Shown here: one piece after another, positions 54,400 through 62,018 of the stretch | How the letters are laid out: each line of letters begins with the position of its first letter | How positions within the stretch are numbered: the first letter of the stretch is position 1 | Source: Desulfobacterales bacterium | Lineage (GTDB): Bacteria; Desulfobacterota; Desulfobacteria; Desulfobacterales; SpSt-501 | Assembly: GCA_030834695.1 (NCBI GenBank) | Contig: JAUQXK010000131.1 | Location: 1 to 62,018 of the forward strand | Reading direction: 5' to 3' | Length of the DNA stretch: 62,018 nucleotides | Translations under genes and position numbers: made by a program | Notes under the pieces: generated by a model | What the model saw: the letters and a program-made list of their open reading frames with translations, nothing else | Database searches by the model: none | Told to the model about the DNA's origin: nothing

Positions 54400-54477
54400 G
54401 TCCCCATCGTCTAGCCAGGTCCAGGACACCGGCCTTTCACGTCGGCAACACCGGTTCAAATCCGGTTGGGGACGCCA
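54400..54477 (+). tRNA. tRNA-Glu (anticodon TTC)
   Basis: Acceptor GTCCCCA pairs with TGGGGAC. The anticodon loop CTTTCAC gives TTC, the T-arm contains TTCAAAT and CCA is encoded at 54475-54477. It is 20 bases after tRNA-Lys. An integrase gene starts downstream, so this tRNA is the likely integration target. Confidence 0.95.
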
Positions 54478-54555: not shown

Positions 54556-55608
54556 TTAGAACTTTTGGAGGTTTTGCAGTTCCAGCAGCTTGAGGGCATC
54601 TTTGGTGTCGCCGTAGTTGCCCTCGACATAAATCTCGGTTGTGCTCTGGCGGCGGTGACGGAGAATCCGCTGAACCTGTTTCAGTCCGACCTTGTGAAGA
54701 TCGTTAAGATACTTAGCCACTGAGTGGCGAATATCGTGATACCCGAATTCTTCTACCTTTGCGTCCTTGCAAATTTTCTTGAGCATTTTCCAGCGGGCAA
54801 CAAAGCGCTGGCCATACAATTTGCTTTTCGGGTTCATATGACAAAAAACATAAGGGCTCTTGGGGTGGCGGTTCTTCCATTGCCAGATGAGCAGGTTGAA
54901 TAGGTCGTCGTTCATCCAAAGCTTCTCATAGGTCATCTCCCCGGAACGATTTTTCCGAGTGCCCAGGCGCACCCACCGCTCCTCGAAGTTTACATCATTG
55001 GACCATGTCCACCGCAGGACCTCTCCTTTACGGGCTCCGGTATGCCAGTAGGCGCCGAGTAGAACCCGATCGTGCCCGGTTGCCGCCAGCATGACCTTCA
55101 GGATGTCCTTGATGGGAATCAATCTCCGAACGGCCTTGGTGTGCGGTTTAATCTTGATGGGCGCGGTCGGATCGTATAGCACGGCATACATCTGCTGGAC
55201 CCAGGAATAAAAGGCGCGGAGGTTCTTCCTGTCTTTGTTCGCGGAGTTGTTGCTGCCGGTCTTTGCCCGATTGTTTATGAAATCGAGGATAACGGGAGGC
55301 GTGATGTCCACCACGCTGACGTCACCGGCAAACTTGTAGAAGCGCTCGAGACAAGATTTTTTTTCGTCGAAGGTCTTCTTCGGAAAATTTATCTTGCAGT
55401 CGGCCAGATACTTTTGGGCCAGCGTCCAGAGCGCGAGGTCTTTACCGCTCGAAGAAAACCTCTGCTGGTTTTCCTTGAGGCGCTTCTTTTCGCCTTGGAC
55501 CCACTGCCGGGCCTCCGTTTTTAGCTTGAAGAACCCTTTTGCCCGTTGTCGTTCGCCGTTCAGCAGGAAGTCCGCTCTCCAGCCCCATTCCGTTTTCCAG
55601 ATGGCCAT
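54556..55608 (-). CDS. int: Tyrosine recombinase/phage integrase
   Basis: A site-specific recombinase of 350 residues. An N-terminal AP2-like arm-binding region (WKTEWGWRADFLLNGERQRAKG) is followed by a SAM-like core-binding domain and the catalytic domain: Arg in HTGARKGEVLRW, HxxR in YHDIRHSVAKYL and the nucleophile Tyr in STTEIYVEG. ATG 55608 has GGAGGG upstream. It faces tRNA-Glu and probably integrated the element there. Confidence 0.94.
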   Translation of the reverse strand: MAIWKTEWGWRADFLLNGERQRAKGFFKLKTEARQWVQGEKKRLKENQQRFSSSGKDLALWTLAQKYLADCKINFPKKTFDEKKSCLERFYKFAGDVSVVDITPPVILDFINNRAKTGSNNSANKDRKNLRAFYSWVQQMYAVLYDPTAPIKIKPHTKAVRRLIPIKDILKVMLAATGHDRVLLGAYWHTGARKGEVLRWTWSNDVNFEERWVRLGTRKNRSGEMTYEKLWMNDDLFNLLIWQWKNRHPKSPYVFCHMNPKSKLYGQRFVARWKMLKKICKDAKVEEFGYHDIRHSVAKYLNDLHKVGLKQVQRILRHRRQSTTEIYVEGNYGDTKDALKLLELQNLQKF

Positions 55609-55813
55609 ACAATGCCCTCCGTGTTGTTCTCCAGCTTCCCCCCACCTTGGTGGCAGGCAGCAGCCCACGCCGCATGAGGTCGCGCACCGTTTCCGTATTA
55701 AGGGATAATTCGGCAGCTACCTGTTCCGGCGTGAGTATAGCGTTTTGGAAATCACAGTCAATTGATGATGCAGGAAACACGACGTTACGACTCCCGGCGC
55801 CCAGGTTGGGCAC
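55442..55813 (-). CDS. HTH/excisionase-like protein overlapping the integrase
   Basis: A 123-residue frame starting at GTG 55813. Residues ~25-75 are an excisionase/MerR-like HTH (LTPEQVAAELSLNTETVRDL, GLLPATKVGGSWRTTRRAL). The HTH ends close to the integrase start; the remaining ~50 residues overlap the integrase in another frame and look like low-quality basic sequence. It may act as the directionality factor. The start codon is uncertain, and a GTG 11 residues later is possible. Confidence 0.6.
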   Translation of the reverse strand: MPNLGAGSRNVVFPASSIDCDFQNAILTPEQVAAELSLNTETVRDLMRRGLLPATKVGGSWRTTRRALYGHLENGMGLESGLPAERRTTTGKRVLQAKNGGPAVGPRRKEAPQGKPAEVFFER

Positions 55814-56192: not shown

Positions 56193-57101
56193 TTAAATAA
56201 TCGCCTTCAGTCTGTGTCTGGCGATTTTGATAGCATTCGGGTTCATATCAAGCCCAATAAATTTCCGGCCCAGGCGTTTGGCTACTGCACATGCCGTTCC
56301 GGAGCCGCAAAATGGCTCAAGAACGACATCGCCTGGGTTTGAAAAAGCCCTGATCAACATTTCCAACAAGGGCTCGGGCTTCTCCGTTGCATAACCATGC
56401 CTAACATGGCGGTGGGAAGTCGATATACCTTTGATGACGCTTCCCGCAGGAACGCCATTGCGGCCGTTCAAGTAGCACTTGTAGTACAAGCTCTTACCAC
56501 TCTGTGAGAATTTGTACCGTCCGCTTGTGATCCCGGCCTGAATGAGTCGTGGATCGTCTGGCGATTTCAATGACTGCCAGCTGTACTGCCCTTTCCCGTC
56601 CCCGTCATTATGACAATAACGGGCGAGCAGCTCTTTGCTGAACGGATCGCAGATTTGATTGAAGGTGTAATGCTTCCCCTTCGAATAAACCAGGATCGTT
56701 TCATGGACTTTGGTGAAGCAGCGGCGGGAGCGATACCCGCCTTTTCCATTGCGGTCCCAGATCAGTTCATTGATAAAATTCTTGTATCCAAAAATATCAT
56801 CCATCTTGCATTTCAAGTAATGAATCGTGCGGTAATCCGCTTGCACACAAATTATTGCATTAGGCTTCATAACCAGCTCGCACAGCTGTAAACGCTTGTG
56901 CATGAAATCCAAGAAGGCATCGAGCGATGGAAAAAGATCGAGAAAATCGCCCCAGTCTTTTTGCGTAAAATATGGTGGGTCGAGATAGATCAAATCAAAG
57001 ACCCCTTTCGGGAATAAGGCGAGCAACTTAAGGTTGTCACCCAACAACATCTGGTTGAGCGGCAGGTTGTGAGCCTGCCACCCGGTACTAAATTTTCCCA
57101 T
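56193..57101 (-). CDS. DNA methyltransferase, N6-adenine/N4-cytosine beta class
   Basis: A 302-residue enzyme. Motif IV DPPYF lies near residue 42, before the AdoMet-binding motif I region VLEPFCGSGTACAVAKRLGRKFIGLDMN near residue 270, split by the conserved FCGSGT turn; this order marks the beta class. MLLGDNLKLLALFPKG is the typical start. No restriction endonuclease is adjacent, so it looks like a solitary methyltransferase of the element. The target sequence cannot be read. Confidence 0.92.
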   Translation of the reverse strand: MGKFSTGWQAHNLPLNQMLLGDNLKLLALFPKGVFDLIYLDPPYFTQKDWGDFLDLFPSLDAFLDFMHKRLQLCELVMKPNAIICVQADYRTIHYLKCKMDDIFGYKNFINELIWDRNGKGGYRSRRCFTKVHETILVYSKGKHYTFNQICDPFSKELLARYCHNDGDGKGQYSWQSLKSPDDPRLIQAGITSGRYKFSQSGKSLYYKCYLNGRNGVPAGSVIKGISTSHRHVRHGYATEKPEPLLEMLIRAFSNPGDVVLEPFCGSGTACAVAKRLGRKFIGLDMNPNAIKIARHRLKAII

Positions 57102-57724
57102 TGCTTGCGTCCAATCTTAAAGCTTGGACGGGCACGGAGGTAACTATTTAGATTTGGGCGCTCAGCTGAAGCCCGATAACATTTTCGCGAGGTGCAATTT
57201 GGTTGGATGACTTCAGCCGATTTGGTTGTTGGTAACATTTTCAAGGTTTCCAATTGCCCTGTCGTTAATGGTTACGGAAGGACCCTCGCACTTTATTGCA
57301 ATCCTCCCAAACTCTTGCCTTGTAGATGATTCCTCCTTCTGACGCGAAATAATGGCGCATTGGTGATGTTAAACCAGCTCATTCAGCAGATCGGTGGCAA
57401 AAAGAGCTTTGGGCTCTTTCCAGCGCCGACGCGTCAATATCAGACCACCGCAGCCGGTGTGAGCTTGGCAAAAAATACGGTTAAATGGAATACGTCGATT
57501 TAATAAGCGGCTGCATGAACCGCTAATAACTGGGGACGAATAGGTGGTTGCTTGATAGGGCGCCCAAAAATCTTGGGTCGCAAGTGAATCGGGGTTAGGA
57601 ACCCGCTAAAGAAATATTTCTGGTTGCCAATATAAGGAGTTAGGGCGATTTTTGTCAAGTATGCCGGGTGGGTCAATTAACTCGACTCCGGTTTGCCGGC
57701 AAAGAAGGGGAGGGCAAAGTCAAT
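57102..57724. other. Long structured intergenic region in the element
   Basis: About 620 bases separate the divergent methyltransferase and DUF3102-like genes. Several small inverted repeats are present: CGTCCAA/TTGGACG near 57109-57131, AAAGAGC/GCTCTTT at 57401-57419 and GCGG/CCGC near 57508-57522. No convincing protein gene is seen. It may hold promoters, an origin or a small RNA. Confidence 0.45.
57399..57419 (-). terminator. Minus-strand hairpin terminator upstream of the methyltransferase
   Basis: Arms AAAGAGC (57401-57407) and GCTCTTT (57413-57419) pair perfectly. On the minus strand the hairpin runs into TTTTT. It would stop leftward transcription about 300 bases before the methyltransferase start, hinting at a short leftward transcript arising between 57420 and 57720. 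Confidence 0.5.
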
Positions 57725-58801
57725 ATGGCAGCGGCTAAACCAAAAAAAACGAAAAAATCATCTGGTAAAGAAGCCCAAACTAAAAAAGCTTATGAACCAA
57801 CACTTTGGGCTTTAGTGATGGATGGTACTTCTATTGCTCAAATAAGTTATATGAAAAATGAAGGATACTCTCGGGAGATCATTTCAAAAGCATACAAAGA
57901 TTTCGATTATAAAAAGTTCACAAGATTAAAGGATAAAAACCCCATTGAATATTTGAAAGAGGGTAAAAAACAGATTGTAGGGCAATGGCATGCTATCGAG
58001 GGTCTTTCAGTTCATAACGAAAAATATACTGTTAGGTTTTTGATCAACATTGGTACCATTCTTAACGATATCGAAGCAGCTCTGAAAACCAAGTCAAAGT
58101 ATATGAAGTGGTTAAGAAAGAATTTTGGTCATAAGCATATGCGATATTTTCAGCAGGCCAAGCAGTTAGCTAACATGGGCGACTTTGCGTATGATGAAGC
58201 CGCCCTTGGGAAAAACAGACTGTTAGCGTTTTCCCGATTAATTAGCGACCCTAAAACAAATTACCAAGAATTGTTAGAGAAATATCCGTTTAAAGACATT
58301 ACTGAAGATCATGGCAGCCTTGTGTTTAAGCAGCACGTGGACAGCATTATCACGTTTCATCGAATGAAGGCTACCGGAGTTGACTATATTGAATTTGCGC
58401 AGGCGGAGCTGATCGCATCGATCTTAAAAGAAGCACTCCCAGTAAAAACAGCGGAAAAGATCGCCAAATGGCTTGGCCATTTCAAAACCGAGGCGAAGAA
58501 GAAGGAATGGCTTGATAATCTCATACTGAATCATCTGCAGTTTCCGGATCAGCAGTCTGTGGCCAAGAAGGGACAGATCAAACTTAGGGAACACTTAGCC
58601 TTCCTCATCAACTTCGGCAAACAAGAGACTTTAGCCGATGCGACTCAAATAGAGGCCGTCCGAGACCTGGTTGACCGAGAAGCGCTGATGGGTCTCCACC
58701 GCCTCATTCAGCTATTGGCGGAAAAACTGAATATCGAGCTTGCCCCGCCAACCGGCGAAAAGGTCACGAGCCTCCAGGACAGGAAAAGGAGGGCCGCATG
58801 A
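57725..58801 (+). CDS. DUF3102-like protein of unknown function
   Basis: A 358-residue, strongly helical protein. The first 25 residues are Lys/Ala-rich and likely disordered or DNA-binding. Residues ~100-155 (VRFLINIGTILNDIEAAL, YMKWLRKNFGHKHMRYFQQA) resemble the DUF3102 domain found in phage and plasmid proteins; the match is by eye. ATG 57725 follows GGGGAGGG. It overlaps the TGT-like gene by 4 bases, so the two should work together. Confidence 0.72.
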   Translation: MAAAKPKKTKKSSGKEAQTKKAYEPTLWALVMDGTSIAQISYMKNEGYSREIISKAYKDFDYKKFTRLKDKNPIEYLKEGKKQIVGQWHAIEGLSVHNEKYTVRFLINIGTILNDIEAALKTKSKYMKWLRKNFGHKHMRYFQQAKQLANMGDFAYDEAALGKNRLLAFSRLISDPKTNYQELLEKYPFKDITEDHGSLVFKQHVDSIITFHRMKATGVDYIEFAQAELIASILKEALPVKTAEKIAKWLGHFKTEAKKKEWLDNLILNHLQFPDQQSVAKKGQIKLREHLAFLINFGKQETLADATQIEAVRDLVDREALMGLHRLIQLLAEKLNIELAPPTGEKVTSLQDRKRRAA

Positions 58802-59625
58802 AAATCTATAACGCAGTAGGCAGCGCGGATATTCTCGCGGAATACCACAAAAAGACAAAGAAGAAGCTCAACGTTCTCGTGGCTTATCCCTACCTCAAAG
58901 GGAGCGCCTATAAACTGACCAAAGAATATCGCGGCATGATTGAATCCCTTTATCTGGACTCGGGAGCCTTTTCGGTGAGTAAGGGGAAAATCAAGTTGTC
59001 CGTATCGGAATACGGCCGGTACATCGCACGTTATGGGAGGCTGTTTGATGAGGTTTTCAATCTGGACGATGATTTTTTTGACCCCATGCACAACCTTACC
59101 AATCAGGCGTATCTGGAAAAGCTGCTGCCGGCGGGTGCCAAAAAACCGATTCCGGTAATCCATGATGCTGAAGATCCATTTGAGGAGTTCAAGGGGTACG
59201 TCAAGCAGAACCACACCTATATTGCCGTAGGGTCGAGCAAAAGGATTTCGCCAGAAGTGTTTAAAAAAATCACTAAAAAATTTCCAACGGTAAAAATCCA
59301 TATGTTTGGCAAACTGGATCGTAAGATGCTGGCTAAGTACAAACCCTATTCGGCGGACGCTTCGACCTGGGCAACCGCGGCCGGCTTGGGTCGGTTCTAT
59401 TATTGGGACCCGGAAGAAAAAAAAGAATATCTGATCGTCTTGAATCCGGAAGAAAAGGCCAGCGGCAAAAACGTAACCTACAGCGAGTTTCCACACAAGG
59501 CGAATCTCGACAGATTTCTGAAGGACACCTTCGGGTACGATCACAGTCAGCTTGTTGCCGATTCCAAGGCGCGGATGGTCGTCAACCTGCATTTCTTCAA
59601 GCAACTGGAGGAAATGCTCAACTGA
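58798..59625 (+). CDS. TGT/DpdA-like transglycosylase-fold protein
   Basis: A 275-residue protein. Residues line up by eye with tRNA-guanine transglycosylase landmarks: LYLDSGAFSV (Asp54, like DSGGFQ), FNLDDDFFD (Asp90-92), PIPVIHD, YIAVGSS (like GGLAVG) and YSADASTW (Asp187, the nucleophile position). The C-terminal zinc motif of tRNA enzymes is absent, as in DpdA-type enzymes that insert 7-deazaguanines into DNA. Family placement is by motif only, so the substrate is unknown. A terminator follows. Confidence 0.72.
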   Translation: MKIYNAVGSADILAEYHKKTKKKLNVLVAYPYLKGSAYKLTKEYRGMIESLYLDSGAFSVSKGKIKLSVSEYGRYIARYGRLFDEVFNLDDDFFDPMHNLTNQAYLEKLLPAGAKKPIPVIHDAEDPFEEFKGYVKQNHTYIAVGSSKRISPEVFKKITKKFPTVKIHMFGKLDRKMLAKYKPYSADASTWATAAGLGRFYYWDPEEKKEYLIVLNPEEKASGKNVTYSEFPHKANLDRFLKDTFGYDHSQLVADSKARMVVNLHFFKQLEEMLN

Positions 59626-59650
59626 AAAAACGAACCACGGTGCGTTTTTT
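59625..59650 (+). terminator. Terminator after the TGT-like gene
   Basis: Arms AAAAAACG (59625-59632) and CGTTTTTT (59643-59650) with an inner ACC/GGT pairing form a hairpin ending in T6, directly at the stop codon. A second GGGC/GCCC hairpin followed by T7 lies near 59688-59721. Confidence 0.7.
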
Positions 59651-59835
59651 GTAAAGTCCTTTCAACCACCTCCGTTATTCTTTCTGGGCTGATCCGATCT
59701 CGGGTTGGCCCATTTTTTTGCCTTAAAATCGGTTCCAGTTTCTTTCTCGTTCCGATTTCGATTCGAAAGAAGAATAAATTATAAACAAGGACATTCACAT
59801 GTTCATCAAATTTCATTTCAAGGAGGCAATTTTCA

Positions 59836-60609
59836 ATGGAAACAAGGAAGAAAAGGAAGAGTAACGGCGGGACCCGGGAGTGGTCCGAGAAGACGGTCAA
59901 TTGTTGCACTGGCTGCACGCATAACTGCCGATACTGCTATGCCCGTGACAATGCGATTCGGTATAAGCAGCTGACCGCAGATCAATGGCCGAACGAGAGA
60001 GTACGGCCACATGACGTTAATAGGGGGCGCAGGAAGAGGTTCCCAGGATGGGTGATGTTTCCGTCATCGCACGATATCACTCCCACCAACTTGGCCGGCT
60101 GCTTGGTCTTTTTAGATGAACTGTTAAGGGTCGGCAACCAAGTTCTCGTCGTCTCCAAGCCGCATTTGGACTGTATTGAGGCAGTCTGTGAAAAGTTCGG
60201 TGATCACCAGAGCCAGATCTTGTTCCGATTCACCATTGGGGCGTGTGATGATAGCGTTTTAAGTTTCTGGGAACCTGGGGCGCCGAGATATGCAGAAAGA
60301 AAAGCATCGCTGAAATATGCATTTCTGAAAGGATTCCAGACATCGGTCAGCGTGGAGCCAATGCTGGATACAGCAAATATCGACAGCTTGGTTGCTGATC
60401 TGATGCCGTTCGTCTTGGAATCGATCTGGATCGGCAAGATGAACCATATCAGCAGCATTTCCAAATATGTCGATGAACCGACCCGCAATGCATTGGCCCA
60501 GTTGGATGCAAGGCAGAGCGACGCCATCATCAAGGGGATCTACGCGCGTCACAAGGATAACCCGATGATCAGGTGGAAAGAAAGCATTCGAGCCGTAGTC
60601 GGAATCTAA
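59836..60609 (+). CDS. Radical SAM protein, SPL/DUF5131-like
   Basis: A 257-residue protein with the radical-SAM motif CxxxCxxC as Cys27, Cys31 and Cys34 in GCTHNCRYCYA. This wording is typical of spore-photoproduct-lyase-like and DUF5131 proteins. VLVVSKPHLDCIEAV, SVSVEPMLDT and ESIWIGKMNHIS are further family-like stretches. AGGAGG lies 9 bases before the ATG. It would cleave S-adenosylmethionine to start a radical reaction; the substrate is unknown. It sits after the TGT-like gene, separated by terminators. Confidence 0.82.
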   Translation: METRKKRKSNGGTREWSEKTVNCCTGCTHNCRYCYARDNAIRYKQLTADQWPNERVRPHDVNRGRRKRFPGWVMFPSSHDITPTNLAGCLVFLDELLRVGNQVLVVSKPHLDCIEAVCEKFGDHQSQILFRFTIGACDDSVLSFWEPGAPRYAERKASLKYAFLKGFQTSVSVEPMLDTANIDSLVADLMPFVLESIWIGKMNHISSISKYVDEPTRNALAQLDARQSDAIIKGIYARHKDNPMIRWKESIRAVVGI

Positions 60610-60630: not shown

Positions 60631-60665
60631 AGGGATGACTCCAACAATCTGGATCATCCCTTTCT
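60631..60665 (+). terminator. Terminator after the radical SAM gene
   Basis: AGGGATGACTCCA (60631-60643) and TGGATCATCCCT (60650-60661) pair with one bulge, followed by a T-rich stretch (TTTCTGTTTC). It is 22 bases after the stop. Confidence 0.65.
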
Positions 60666-60775
60666 GTTTCTGATGGTTCGGAATGAAACTGGAACTGTCA
60701 TGCCATGCTGACAGTAACAAATAACCACAATGACGATTGATGTTCATTGGAATCAACTCAACAGGAGGAAACAAG

Positions 60776-60943
60776 ATGAGGACTGCAGAATATCAAAAAT
60801 CATTAACCGTGGCGTTCCGTCCGGAGGTATTTCAACGCATGAAGGAGATCACCGACGAACGCAAGACCAGCATCGCTGAATTTGTTCGCCAGGCCATAGA
60901 CGAAGCCTTGAAAAAGGAAGCGTCTGAGGAACTGCGCTTTTAG
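60776..60943 (+). CDS. Ribbon-helix-helix (CopG/Arc-type) DNA-binding protein
   Basis: A 55-residue protein. The strand YQKSLTVAFRP is followed by two helices (EVFQRMKEITDERK and SIAEFVRQAIDEALKKE), the compact RHH fold. ATG 60776 follows AGGAGG. Such proteins usually act as repressors or plasmid copy or partition regulators. No toxin gene is adjacent; the primase follows after 20 bases. Confidence 0.8.
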   Translation: MRTAEYQKSLTVAFRPEVFQRMKEITDERKTSIAEFVRQAIDEALKKEASEELRF

Positions 60944-60963: not shown

Positions 60964-62018
60964 ATGCTCTTAACCTTCAAGACCGTGCTCGCCGGTCAAA
61001 AACCATACAACACCCTCTGCGGAGATGAATACGTAGCGTTATTGAAAGCGAATGAAACGAAGATTCACCAGGGCAATATCGGCGTTTACCTTGCCCGAAA
61101 GGTGATCGTTCAGAATCAGGAGCTTTACCAGCCTCTGATAGACATCGATGGCGGTTCAGATCTCAGTAGTGATCCGAAGATCGAAAGCGCGATCCAGTTT
61201 GCGGAGGCAACGCTGAGGGTGCTCCAGAAGTATGGGGCCGGCGAGCATTTCAAGTTCATCGCAACGGGGGGAACTGGATTCAGGGCGATATCGAACCTTC
61301 TGTTCAACCGTGATGCCTATCAGGCGTTTGCCGATTTCGTCCGTTATGAAATGCCGCACATTACCGACCTGGGGCCAACGGATGAAACTGATCGGCCCCA
61401 CCAGGTCCTGGCTTACAAAGGCCATCCCGACCAGACATCAAAAGAGCTGGTGGACGGTCATAGCGCTGTGATCGAGCAGGGTCTTCTCGACCATGGGACA
61501 TTTGGTGTGTTGGATTACAGGGCAGGAACGGAAGGCAAGCTTGAGCCTGAAGATGTGATCAAACTGGTGGAATGGCTCCTCGCTGGAACGCTTATCTCCG
61601 ATCTGAATTCACTGGGGGCCTTTGGAAAGCGGCTCGCTGAATACCAGCATATCCTGTCGGAGCTCATTTTTGACCCTTTCAGCTATATCCAGCTTCGTAG
61701 CAAGATCAAGCCAGTCGGACTTGAGGTGATGCGTGAAATGCTCGAAGGGAAGGGCATGCTTTCAAGGGTTGAACAGCGAGGCCGCAGCCAGGCAATATCG
61801 TTTAAGGGCCTCCCATGCCCGCTTTGTGGGAAAATCGATTCTAACGCCAGAGCCTATCCACCCGCATATGCGCTTCGGTGTTTTAACAGCAATTGTCAGG
61901 CCAATAAGGGTATTCCCCTCAGAAGCTGGGCCAAAATCAAACTGAAGGCCCCTTGTACCTCCGACAAACGTGATACTTTTGATCTCACGCCCCCAGCCTC
62001 TTTTGTCAGCATGGACCG
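60964..62018 (+). CDS. Archaeo-eukaryotic-type primase (AEP/PrimPol), truncated by the window
   Basis: A reading frame open from ATG 60964 to the window end (351 codons, no stop). YQPLIDIDGG gives the catalytic DxD (Asp60, Asp62) of AEP primases. FIATGGTGFRAISNLLF sits where the sxH nucleotide-binding motif is expected, although the His is replaced. VLDYRAG may be the third acidic motif. Further on, a zinc ribbon is formed by CPLCG and CFNSNC. A helicase domain may follow outside the window. The family call is by motif reading only. Confidence 0.7.
   Translation, partial: MLLTFKTVLAGQKPYNTLCGDEYVALLKANETKIHQGNIGVYLARKVIVQNQELYQPLIDIDGGSDLSSDPKIESAIQFAEATLRVLQKYGAGEHFKFIATGGTGFRAISNLLFNRDAYQAFADFVRYEMPHITDLGPTDETDRPHQVLAYKGHPDQTSKELVDGHSAVIEQGLLDHGTFGVLDYRAGTEGKLEPEDVIKLVEWLLAGTLISDLNSLGAFGKRLAEYQHILSELIFDPFSYIQLRSKIKPVGLEVMREMLEGKGMLSRVEQRGRSQAISFKGLPCPLCGKIDSNARAYPPAYALRCFNSNCQANKGIPLRSWAKIKLKAPCTSDKRDTFDLTPPASFVSMD

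Follow-up and report, generated by a model that had tools for sequence, protein, structure and literature searches.

DpdA proteins, which share a fold with the tRNA-guanine transglycosylases (TGT), have been described in phages and in the dpd islands of bacteria. We report a DpdA-like gene on an integrated element at the end of contig JAUQXK010000131.1 of a sulfate-reducing Desulfobacterales bacterium (assembly GCA_030834695.1), whose 62,018 nucleotides constitute the window analyzed. The element carries, one after the other, the genes for P0003, a protein of an uncharacterized family, for the DpdA-like P0001, and for P0002, a radical S-adenosylmethionine (radical-SAM) protein resembling spore photoproduct lyase (SPL). 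The contig stops at 62018, with the far side of the element outside view, and statements on the gene content of the element refer to the seven open reading frames (ORFs) on it that were scanned with Pfam and PHROG.

Among phages (9g, CAjan, and phages with DpdA only, such as Salmonella phage 7-11), DpdA has the same pair of aspartates, the same characteristic histidine and the same lack of a zinc motif as P0001. The DpdA-only phages are like the window's element also in having the enzyme without preQ0 genes, and they form the largest DpdA phage group, comprising 76 phages, in an excerpt of PMC6884629. Unlike the phage genes, the one for P0001 lies on an integrated element, with a P0003 family gene ahead and, at some such loci, an SPL-like radical-SAM gene; in phage contig L067, a ParB_N protein comes next instead, downstream of DpdA (E 1.3e-10). 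The bacterial Dpd system, composed of DpdA and the ParB-like DpdB (7ui4), offers the best structural match to P0001, and in both cases the enzyme has an adjacent partner protein. However, neither preQ0 genes nor further dpd genes were recognized in the part of the element in view, PADLOC showed no Dpd model for the four window proteins submitted, and the cut-off of the DpdA equivalog NF041059 was reached by none of the three element homologues scanned. The tRNA-directed TGT family (PF01702) has fold and aspartate chemistry in common with P0001, which nevertheless presents neither a PF01702 match up to E 1 nor a zinc site. Cap10, of the type IV cyclic oligonucleotide-based antiphage signaling system (CBASS), likewise combines the TGT fold with a partner protein, according to an excerpt of PMC11996544, but no CD-NTase or QueC-like (Cap9) gene was recognized in the visible part of the element. 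As for P0002, it shares the CxxxCxxC motif and an SPL-like fold with SPL, DUF5131, PA0069-like and TcmP-associated radical-SAM proteins, although it reaches the curated cut-off in none of the models scanned and has no TcmP beside it.

DpdA-like genes prove to be frequent on integrated elements, where they have a near-fixed uncharacterized partner. We favor, with a probability of about 0.55, the explanation that the DpdA-type base-exchange enzyme and its P0003 partner put a salvaged 7-deazaguanine into the DNA of the element, the radical-SAM protein being optional. The marking of DNA by such a module may be partly new.

The DpdA-like protein and its upstream partner

Sequence, fold and catalytic residues confirm P0001 as a TGT-fold protein of the DpdA group, as had been proposed in a first-pass annotation made from the letters of the sequence. 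The ORF is intact and the motifs DSGAF, LDDD, AVG and SADAS, the last with Asp187, are all found. It holds no cysteine at all, which rules out the zinc motif already supposed to be missing, and CxCxxC occurs in none of 53 homologues. The profile phrog_887, named 'queuine tRNA-ribosyltransferase', matches residues 1-243 (E 2.7e-32). With tblastn, P0001 finds 159 of 50,697 phage records, 120 of them covering at least 80% of the query; its identity to phage DpdAs is about 23-27%, with homology spanning nearly the full length, and phage 9g DpdA matches at E 4e-16 and 26.4% identity. Furthermore, PDB entry 7ui4, 'DNA-guanine transglycosylase', is reached at E 0.0015 by a profile of seven sequences, in an alignment that includes the catalytic Asp and the region of the nucleophile. 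A search by peptide pattern in viral-contig and genome-contig collections yielded no confirmed close relative.

The comparison of structures bears out the TGT fold. An AlphaFold2 model of P0001, made from an alignment of nine sequences (predicted local distance difference test, pLDDT, 81.3; predicted template modeling score 0.81), has 7ui4 (DpdA) as its top match after re-ranking of the Foldseek matches with VIA-align (Z 17.4, 258 residues, 3.8 Å); the next-best row has Z 16.0, the tRNA TGTs Z 15-16, and chain 9ntn_B of the Cap10-CdnD complex Z 15.1. The catalytic aspartate is conserved as the annotation had anticipated: Asp187, together with His168, is kept in 43/43 element and 10/10 phage homologues, and Asp54 and Asp90 in 42/43 and 10/10, the exception being a Desulfosarcina widdelii copy without that half of the protein. 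His168 aligns with His196 of phage 9g DpdA, the histidine by which DpdA and DpdA2 are told apart in an excerpt of PMC6884629.

Homologues occur in four of 389 genomes of the class and five of 395 of the phylum, both counts including the window's genome, and in 22 of 347 genomes of the order of genome G770 (two of which had been found before), with up to six places per genome. Altogether 52 DpdA-like places were found, of which 43 were opened and counted; L271, which holds one of the nine omitted, was fetched but left out. Three loci (L010, L012 and L197) lie on short contigs, and 34 of the 43 stretches extend at least 5 kb on both sides. Among plasmids, 10 of 72,556 records hold homologues, in Bacillota; three of these plasmid neighborhoods contain no annotated radical-SAM or que gene, and most of their genes are hypothetical.

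The gene strongly linked to DpdA is that of the upstream P0003 family, not the radical-SAM gene. A member lies directly upstream on the same strand in 39 of the 43 loci, with a gap of -92 to 370 bp (hidden Markov model, HMM, E at most 1e-4), a linkage that went unnoticed in the first-pass annotation. Of these 39 loci, 32 supplied the sequences for the HMM and therefore match by construction; the independent ones are the window, L010, L252, L254, L258, L266 and L272, the partner in L272 being a near copy of an HMM seed. The window's P0003 matches partner HMMs built without it in two scans (E 1.3e-13 and 3e-13). In an all-against-all BLAST of upstream genes, a main cluster takes in 32 of 41 and a second one four.

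P0003 itself matches nothing in Pfam up to E 1 and nothing in phages by tblastn. Two possible identities of the family were rejected: DUF3102, matched by one of 30 partner proteins at E 0.053, and homology to the helical domain of fused radical-SAM proteins, for which hhalign gave probabilities of 1.0% and 0.15%. An excerpt of PMC12839542 describes DpdA as working together with DpdB, a ParB-like protein that is sometimes dispensable. By analogy with DpdB, we infer a targeting role for P0003, whose family would offer a way into the question of how DpdA is directed to its DNA.

The radical-SAM gene and its linkage to TGT-like genes

An SPL/DUF5131-like radical-SAM protein had been announced beside P0001, and the motif, the weak Pfam matches and the predicted fold agree with it. 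In P0002 the motif reads C27-x3-C31-x2-C34, its three cysteines being invariant in 48/48. The Pfam matches to Radical_SAM (E 3.2e-4) and DUF5131 (E 7.7e-5) are both below the gathering score, the latter (PF07505) at 22.7 bits for a cut-off of 28.9, and the SPL models are not reached either (TIGR04070, 11.5 bits, cut-off 400; PF20903, 15.1 bits, cut-off 27). The nearest solved structure to the P0002 model (pLDDT 95.3) is spore photoproduct lyase (4fhc, Z 15.8), with other radical-SAM enzymes within Z 1 of it. SPL acts on DNA.

As a fixed unit, the two-gene cassette proposed for the window was not borne out. By HMM scan, seven of the 43 loci have an SPL-like radical-SAM gene at most 6 kb from DpdA, three of them at 300 bp or less (211 bp in the window, 278 bp in L266); one of the seven is on the opposite strand and one is 5.6 kb off. 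A motif scan of 41 DpdA loci found six such genes, and in the stretches examined the gene is absent from 36 of 43 loci. From the other side, 122 loci of the P0002 subfamily were taken (the best 80 of 138 related genome-contig stretches, plus 42 viral contigs), and a TGT-like gene was seen in only one of the stretches fetched, L070 of D. widdelii. These locus counts (36/43 and 121/122 without the other gene) reject an obligate pairing of the two genes, which in the window are also separated by a terminator-like hairpin: the radical-SAM gene is an optional extra on such elements. Since a TGT-like gene accompanies it in 1/122 loci, and many members have TcmP or are fused, the window's radical-SAM subfamily usually works without TGT. 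Of the 80 genome loci, 24 have a TcmP-like gene no more than 500 bp away, four of five examples checked being TIGR04474, and a TcmP HMM found no match among the window's ORFs. In the order, 40 of 389 genomes carry the wider family, many of these matches being weak.

The survey of radical-SAM genes within DpdA-bearing genomes gives a graded picture. When 28 such genomes were searched with a profile of six sequences, 13 of them yielded a total of 22 places, five of the 22 being query members. Fifteen of these places have a TGT-like gene no farther than 6 kb away (0.18 expected): seven are by DpdA-like genes, for which alone 0.14 would be expected, and eight by a second TGT-like family, here called TGT2. 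Once the five query places were removed, G895 dropped (its element is nearly the same as that of G770) and tandem copies merged, 13 clusters were left, of which six are near a gene of either family (P 1.3e-7, or P 9e-4 on the assumption that both occupy no more than a tenth of the genome). Five of the six are beside TGT2 and one beside DpdA, so that DpdA alone counts 1/13 (P 0.08). Among the DpdA loci themselves, the six of 41 with a radical-SAM gene (five if G770 and G895 are taken as one) are more than a uniform background would give (P 1e-6 to 2e-4); if mobile DNA is taken to be ten times denser in these genes, the excess is no longer clear (P 0.03 to 0.59, depending on the assumed density). 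By these data, the link between radical-SAM and TGT-like genes is real for TGT2 and suggestive for DpdA. A lack of conserved linkage, by which the first-pass annotation would have been refuted, was not clearly seen, but for DpdA itself this test is weak once query loci and duplicates are removed.

TGT2 proteins have about 440 residues and the motifs DSGGYS, SLDIP and YDSIN. An SPL-like radical-SAM gene is at most 6 kb from TGT2 in six of 15 loci, and 9-107 bp away in four, a count biased by the fact that TGT2 itself was found by looking around radical-SAM genes. Of 19 places 15 were opened, three short fragments being left out and one merged. Weak scores underlie its assignment to the superfamily (phrog_887 at E 1.8e-4 in one of two members scanned); against the DpdA profile, hhalign gives a probability of 73% and E 3e-5 over 55 columns. 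There was no PDB match, and no Pfam match for the one member scanned.

Source of the base and weighing of the explanations

No precursor gene was seen beside DpdA-like genes where these were looked for, and for the window this agrees with the first-pass annotation. TGT and QueA are present in 8/8 DpdA hosts examined. Full-length QueC is found in six of the eight, the window's host (G000) and G770 showing only weak matches of about 55 positions, and the YhhQ/Vut_1 family occurs in two, exactly those without full-length QueC. Within the set searched (QueC, YhhQ, TGT and QueA), a host with YhhQ and without full-length QueC implies that the base, if one is used, must be salvaged. The first-pass annotation had the element importing preQ0 of the host: a host-supplied precursor is plausible, the route being salvage, with YhhQ present and full-length QueC not found. 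Because QueC and YhhQ complement each other across the eight hosts, this idea can be put to the test.

Under the explanation that we favor, P0003 would most likely bring the DpdA-like enzyme to DNA, in a manner comparable to the possible role of ParB-like DpdB. The chemistry of Asp54 and Asp187 would then swap guanines of the element's DNA for a 7-deazaguanine, either preQ0 or preQ1, which the host would salvage through YhhQ, and the modified base would protect or mark the element. The SPL-like protein would be an optional second enzyme, probably acting on nucleic acid and forming here a transcription unit of its own.

Several observations weigh against this explanation. Two DpdA-only phages were tested according to an excerpt of PMC6884629, Orion being unmodified and 7-11 carrying about 0.02% 2′-deoxy-7-amido-7-deazaguanosine. 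P0003 has no recognized DNA-binding domain and its family lacks a consistent Pfam match (30 members). Foldseek alone put other TIM barrels first for P0001, with archaeosine TGT 1j2b at rank 6, and the 43 loci are not independent, there being several per genome. The dpdA of D. widdelii lacks the N-terminal half, whereas the radical-SAM ORF there is whole. Finally, the assignment of DNA as the putative substrate comes from homology, and proteins of the TGT fold may instead use tRNA or, as in 9ntn_B, bind a protein that carries a modification.

Among the alternatives, the two genes might be independent cargo, with dpdA and P0003 as an anti-restriction module and the radical-SAM gene serving repair or modification without relation to them, in the replication region of these elements. 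This is a tentative reading which we hold to be less probable than the favored one. In its favor, relatives of P0002 in L044 and L045 (57-58% identity) lie beside a D5-like replication gene with no TGT-like gene, a relative in L069 (58% identity) also has none, the radical-SAM gene of L233 overlaps a DUF927 gene, TcmP-like genes are neighbors in 24 of the 80 genome loci, and a tenfold density of both genes in mobile DNA would make the DpdA-side count ordinary. What speaks against it is that proximity to the two TGT-like families taken together (6/13) stays above chance even in a tenth of the genome, although TGT2 itself was found via the radical-SAM genes. The opposite supposition, that both genes form a hypermodification pair in which DpdA inserts a 7-deazaguanine in DNA and the SPL-like enzyme remodels it there, draws on the 15/22 and 7/22 places, on the short gaps to TGT2 and DpdA, and on the fact that the enzyme of the nearest solved fold acts on DNA. 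Yet the 36/43 and 121/122 loci lacking the other gene, the strand and distance of some of the seven exceptions, the seed-free DpdA count of 1/13, the intervening hairpin, the broken dpdA beside an intact radical-SAM gene in D. widdelii and the other radical-SAM folds within Z 1 of SPL render it doubtful. We consider equally questionable its extension to a new DNA-marking module of Desulfobacterota elements, in which P0003 would recruit DpdA, the radical-SAM enzyme would modify the base in a recurrent subset to give an undescribed hypermodified 7-deazaguanine, and TGT2 with its own radical-SAM neighbors would do likewise in parallel. Radical remodeling of the inserted base is a possible activity and not the leading reading, and on this point the first-pass annotation goes further than the evidence; if true, it would be a radical-SAM step on a DNA-borne 7-deazaguanine, of which we know no report. 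In the open-licence literature, titles and abstract openings describe neither such a step nor a TGT/DpdA with an SPL-like radical-SAM protein, and no paper was found joining 'DUF5131' with 'radical SAM'.

The substrate could also be other than DNA. The TGT-like protein might act on a protein, possibly P0003, as Cap10 binds deazaguanylated CdnD in type IV CBASS: 9ntn_B is among the structural matches, the adjacent partner is near-fixed (39/43), and deazaguanylation is described in an excerpt of PMC11996544. DpdA is nevertheless the better structural match, its histidine is kept, no QueC-like or CD-NTase gene was recognized among the ORFs scanned and the host is without full-length QueC, and we regard this possibility as unlikely. 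Just as improbable appears a tRNA- or RNA-directed enzyme that would alter host translation for the element, suggested by a fold like that of the tRNA TGTs and by the PHROG name, and opposed by the missing PF01702 match and zinc motif and by a host already endowed with TGT and QueA.

The element, its surroundings and related loci

The features of the window are collected in Table 1, with gene calls made by a simple longest-ORF picker. A tRNA-Glu gene adjoins the element, on which a tyrosine integrase, a methyltransferase, a ribbon-helix-helix protein and a replication-protein-like ORF accompany the three genes discussed above. G+C falls from 0.57-0.69 before about 54 kb to 0.46-0.54 after; judging from this fall and the ARAGORN call, the tRNA-Glu gene is probably the integration site. 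The host genome, rated 100% complete, belongs to the same order as D. widdelii.

Table 1. Positions of the features of the window, and of TGT2 genes on other contigs
Feature	Position	Strand	Evidence or remark
tRNA-Glu (ttc), edge of element	54400..54477	+	ARAGORN
Tyrosine integrase	54556..55668	-	PF00589 E 1.8e-16; phrog_1 E 4.1e-38
N4/N6 DNA methyltransferase	56193..57101	-	PF01555 E 1.7e-48
P0003, uncharacterized family, upstream of dpdA with 4-bp overlap	57668..58801	+	HMM and locus counts
DpdA-like TGT-fold protein P0001, 275 aa	58798..59625	+	Homology, fold, conserved residues
Terminator-like hairpin followed by T tract, between dpdA and radical-SAM gene	59685..59712	+	12-bp stem, -20 kcal/mol, z -4.18
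P0002, SPL-like radical-SAM protein, 257 aa	59836..60609	+	Pfam, motif, fold
Ribbon-helix-helix regulator (scanned as ORF 60737-60943)	60776..60943	+	phrog_3180 Arc-like repressor E 2e-4
Replication-protein-like ORF, truncated at contig end (resembles a primase by eye only)	60964..62018	+	ORF
TGT2 members	L265:13225-14532, L267:6734-8062, L268:5504-6847, L269:13293-14606, L270:11484-12794, L294:7379-8692		Often radical-SAM gene next

By eye, a ribosome-binding-like stretch precedes the ATG of both the P0001 and P0002 genes. A second stable hairpin lies directly 3′ of the radical-SAM gene (60631-60661, -21.8 kcal/mol, z -3.46), which is consistent with this gene being its own transcription unit. 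The methyltransferase is a possible source of a second DNA mark of the element. The BLAST cluster of the ribbon-helix-helix regulator recurs near DpdA in L011 and L196, and the terminal replication-protein-like ORF has no PHROG match up to E 1 and a weak best Pfam match (E 0.094).

Other observations concern the relatives of P0002. In L055:2457-5489, a member of the radical-SAM family is fused to an N4/N6 methyltransferase and DUF1848 (Pfam); further fusions occur in L046:6922-10971, L052:8671-10701 and L053:9651-12116, with N-terminal domains that by eye are N-formylglutamate amidohydrolase- or DUF1848-like. An RNase PH-like gene, again by eye, precedes the radical-SAM gene in 12 loci (L073, L075, L078, L097, L104 and seven more), whose neighborhood looks chromosomal.

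Near DpdA, a DUF6573 family gene recurs, a single BLAST cluster covering 12 of 41 loci (including L233:8781-9254, assigned by Pfam), and the family is also present on a Thermobacillus plasmid (L200:3556-3933) that carries a distant DpdA-like gene. In genome G930, three related DpdA elements (L272, L273, L237, L274 and L236; G930:C2:1062000-1143900) lie within 82 kb, among genes that by eye are repeated and chemotaxis-like, as if element and neighborhood had been duplicated together.

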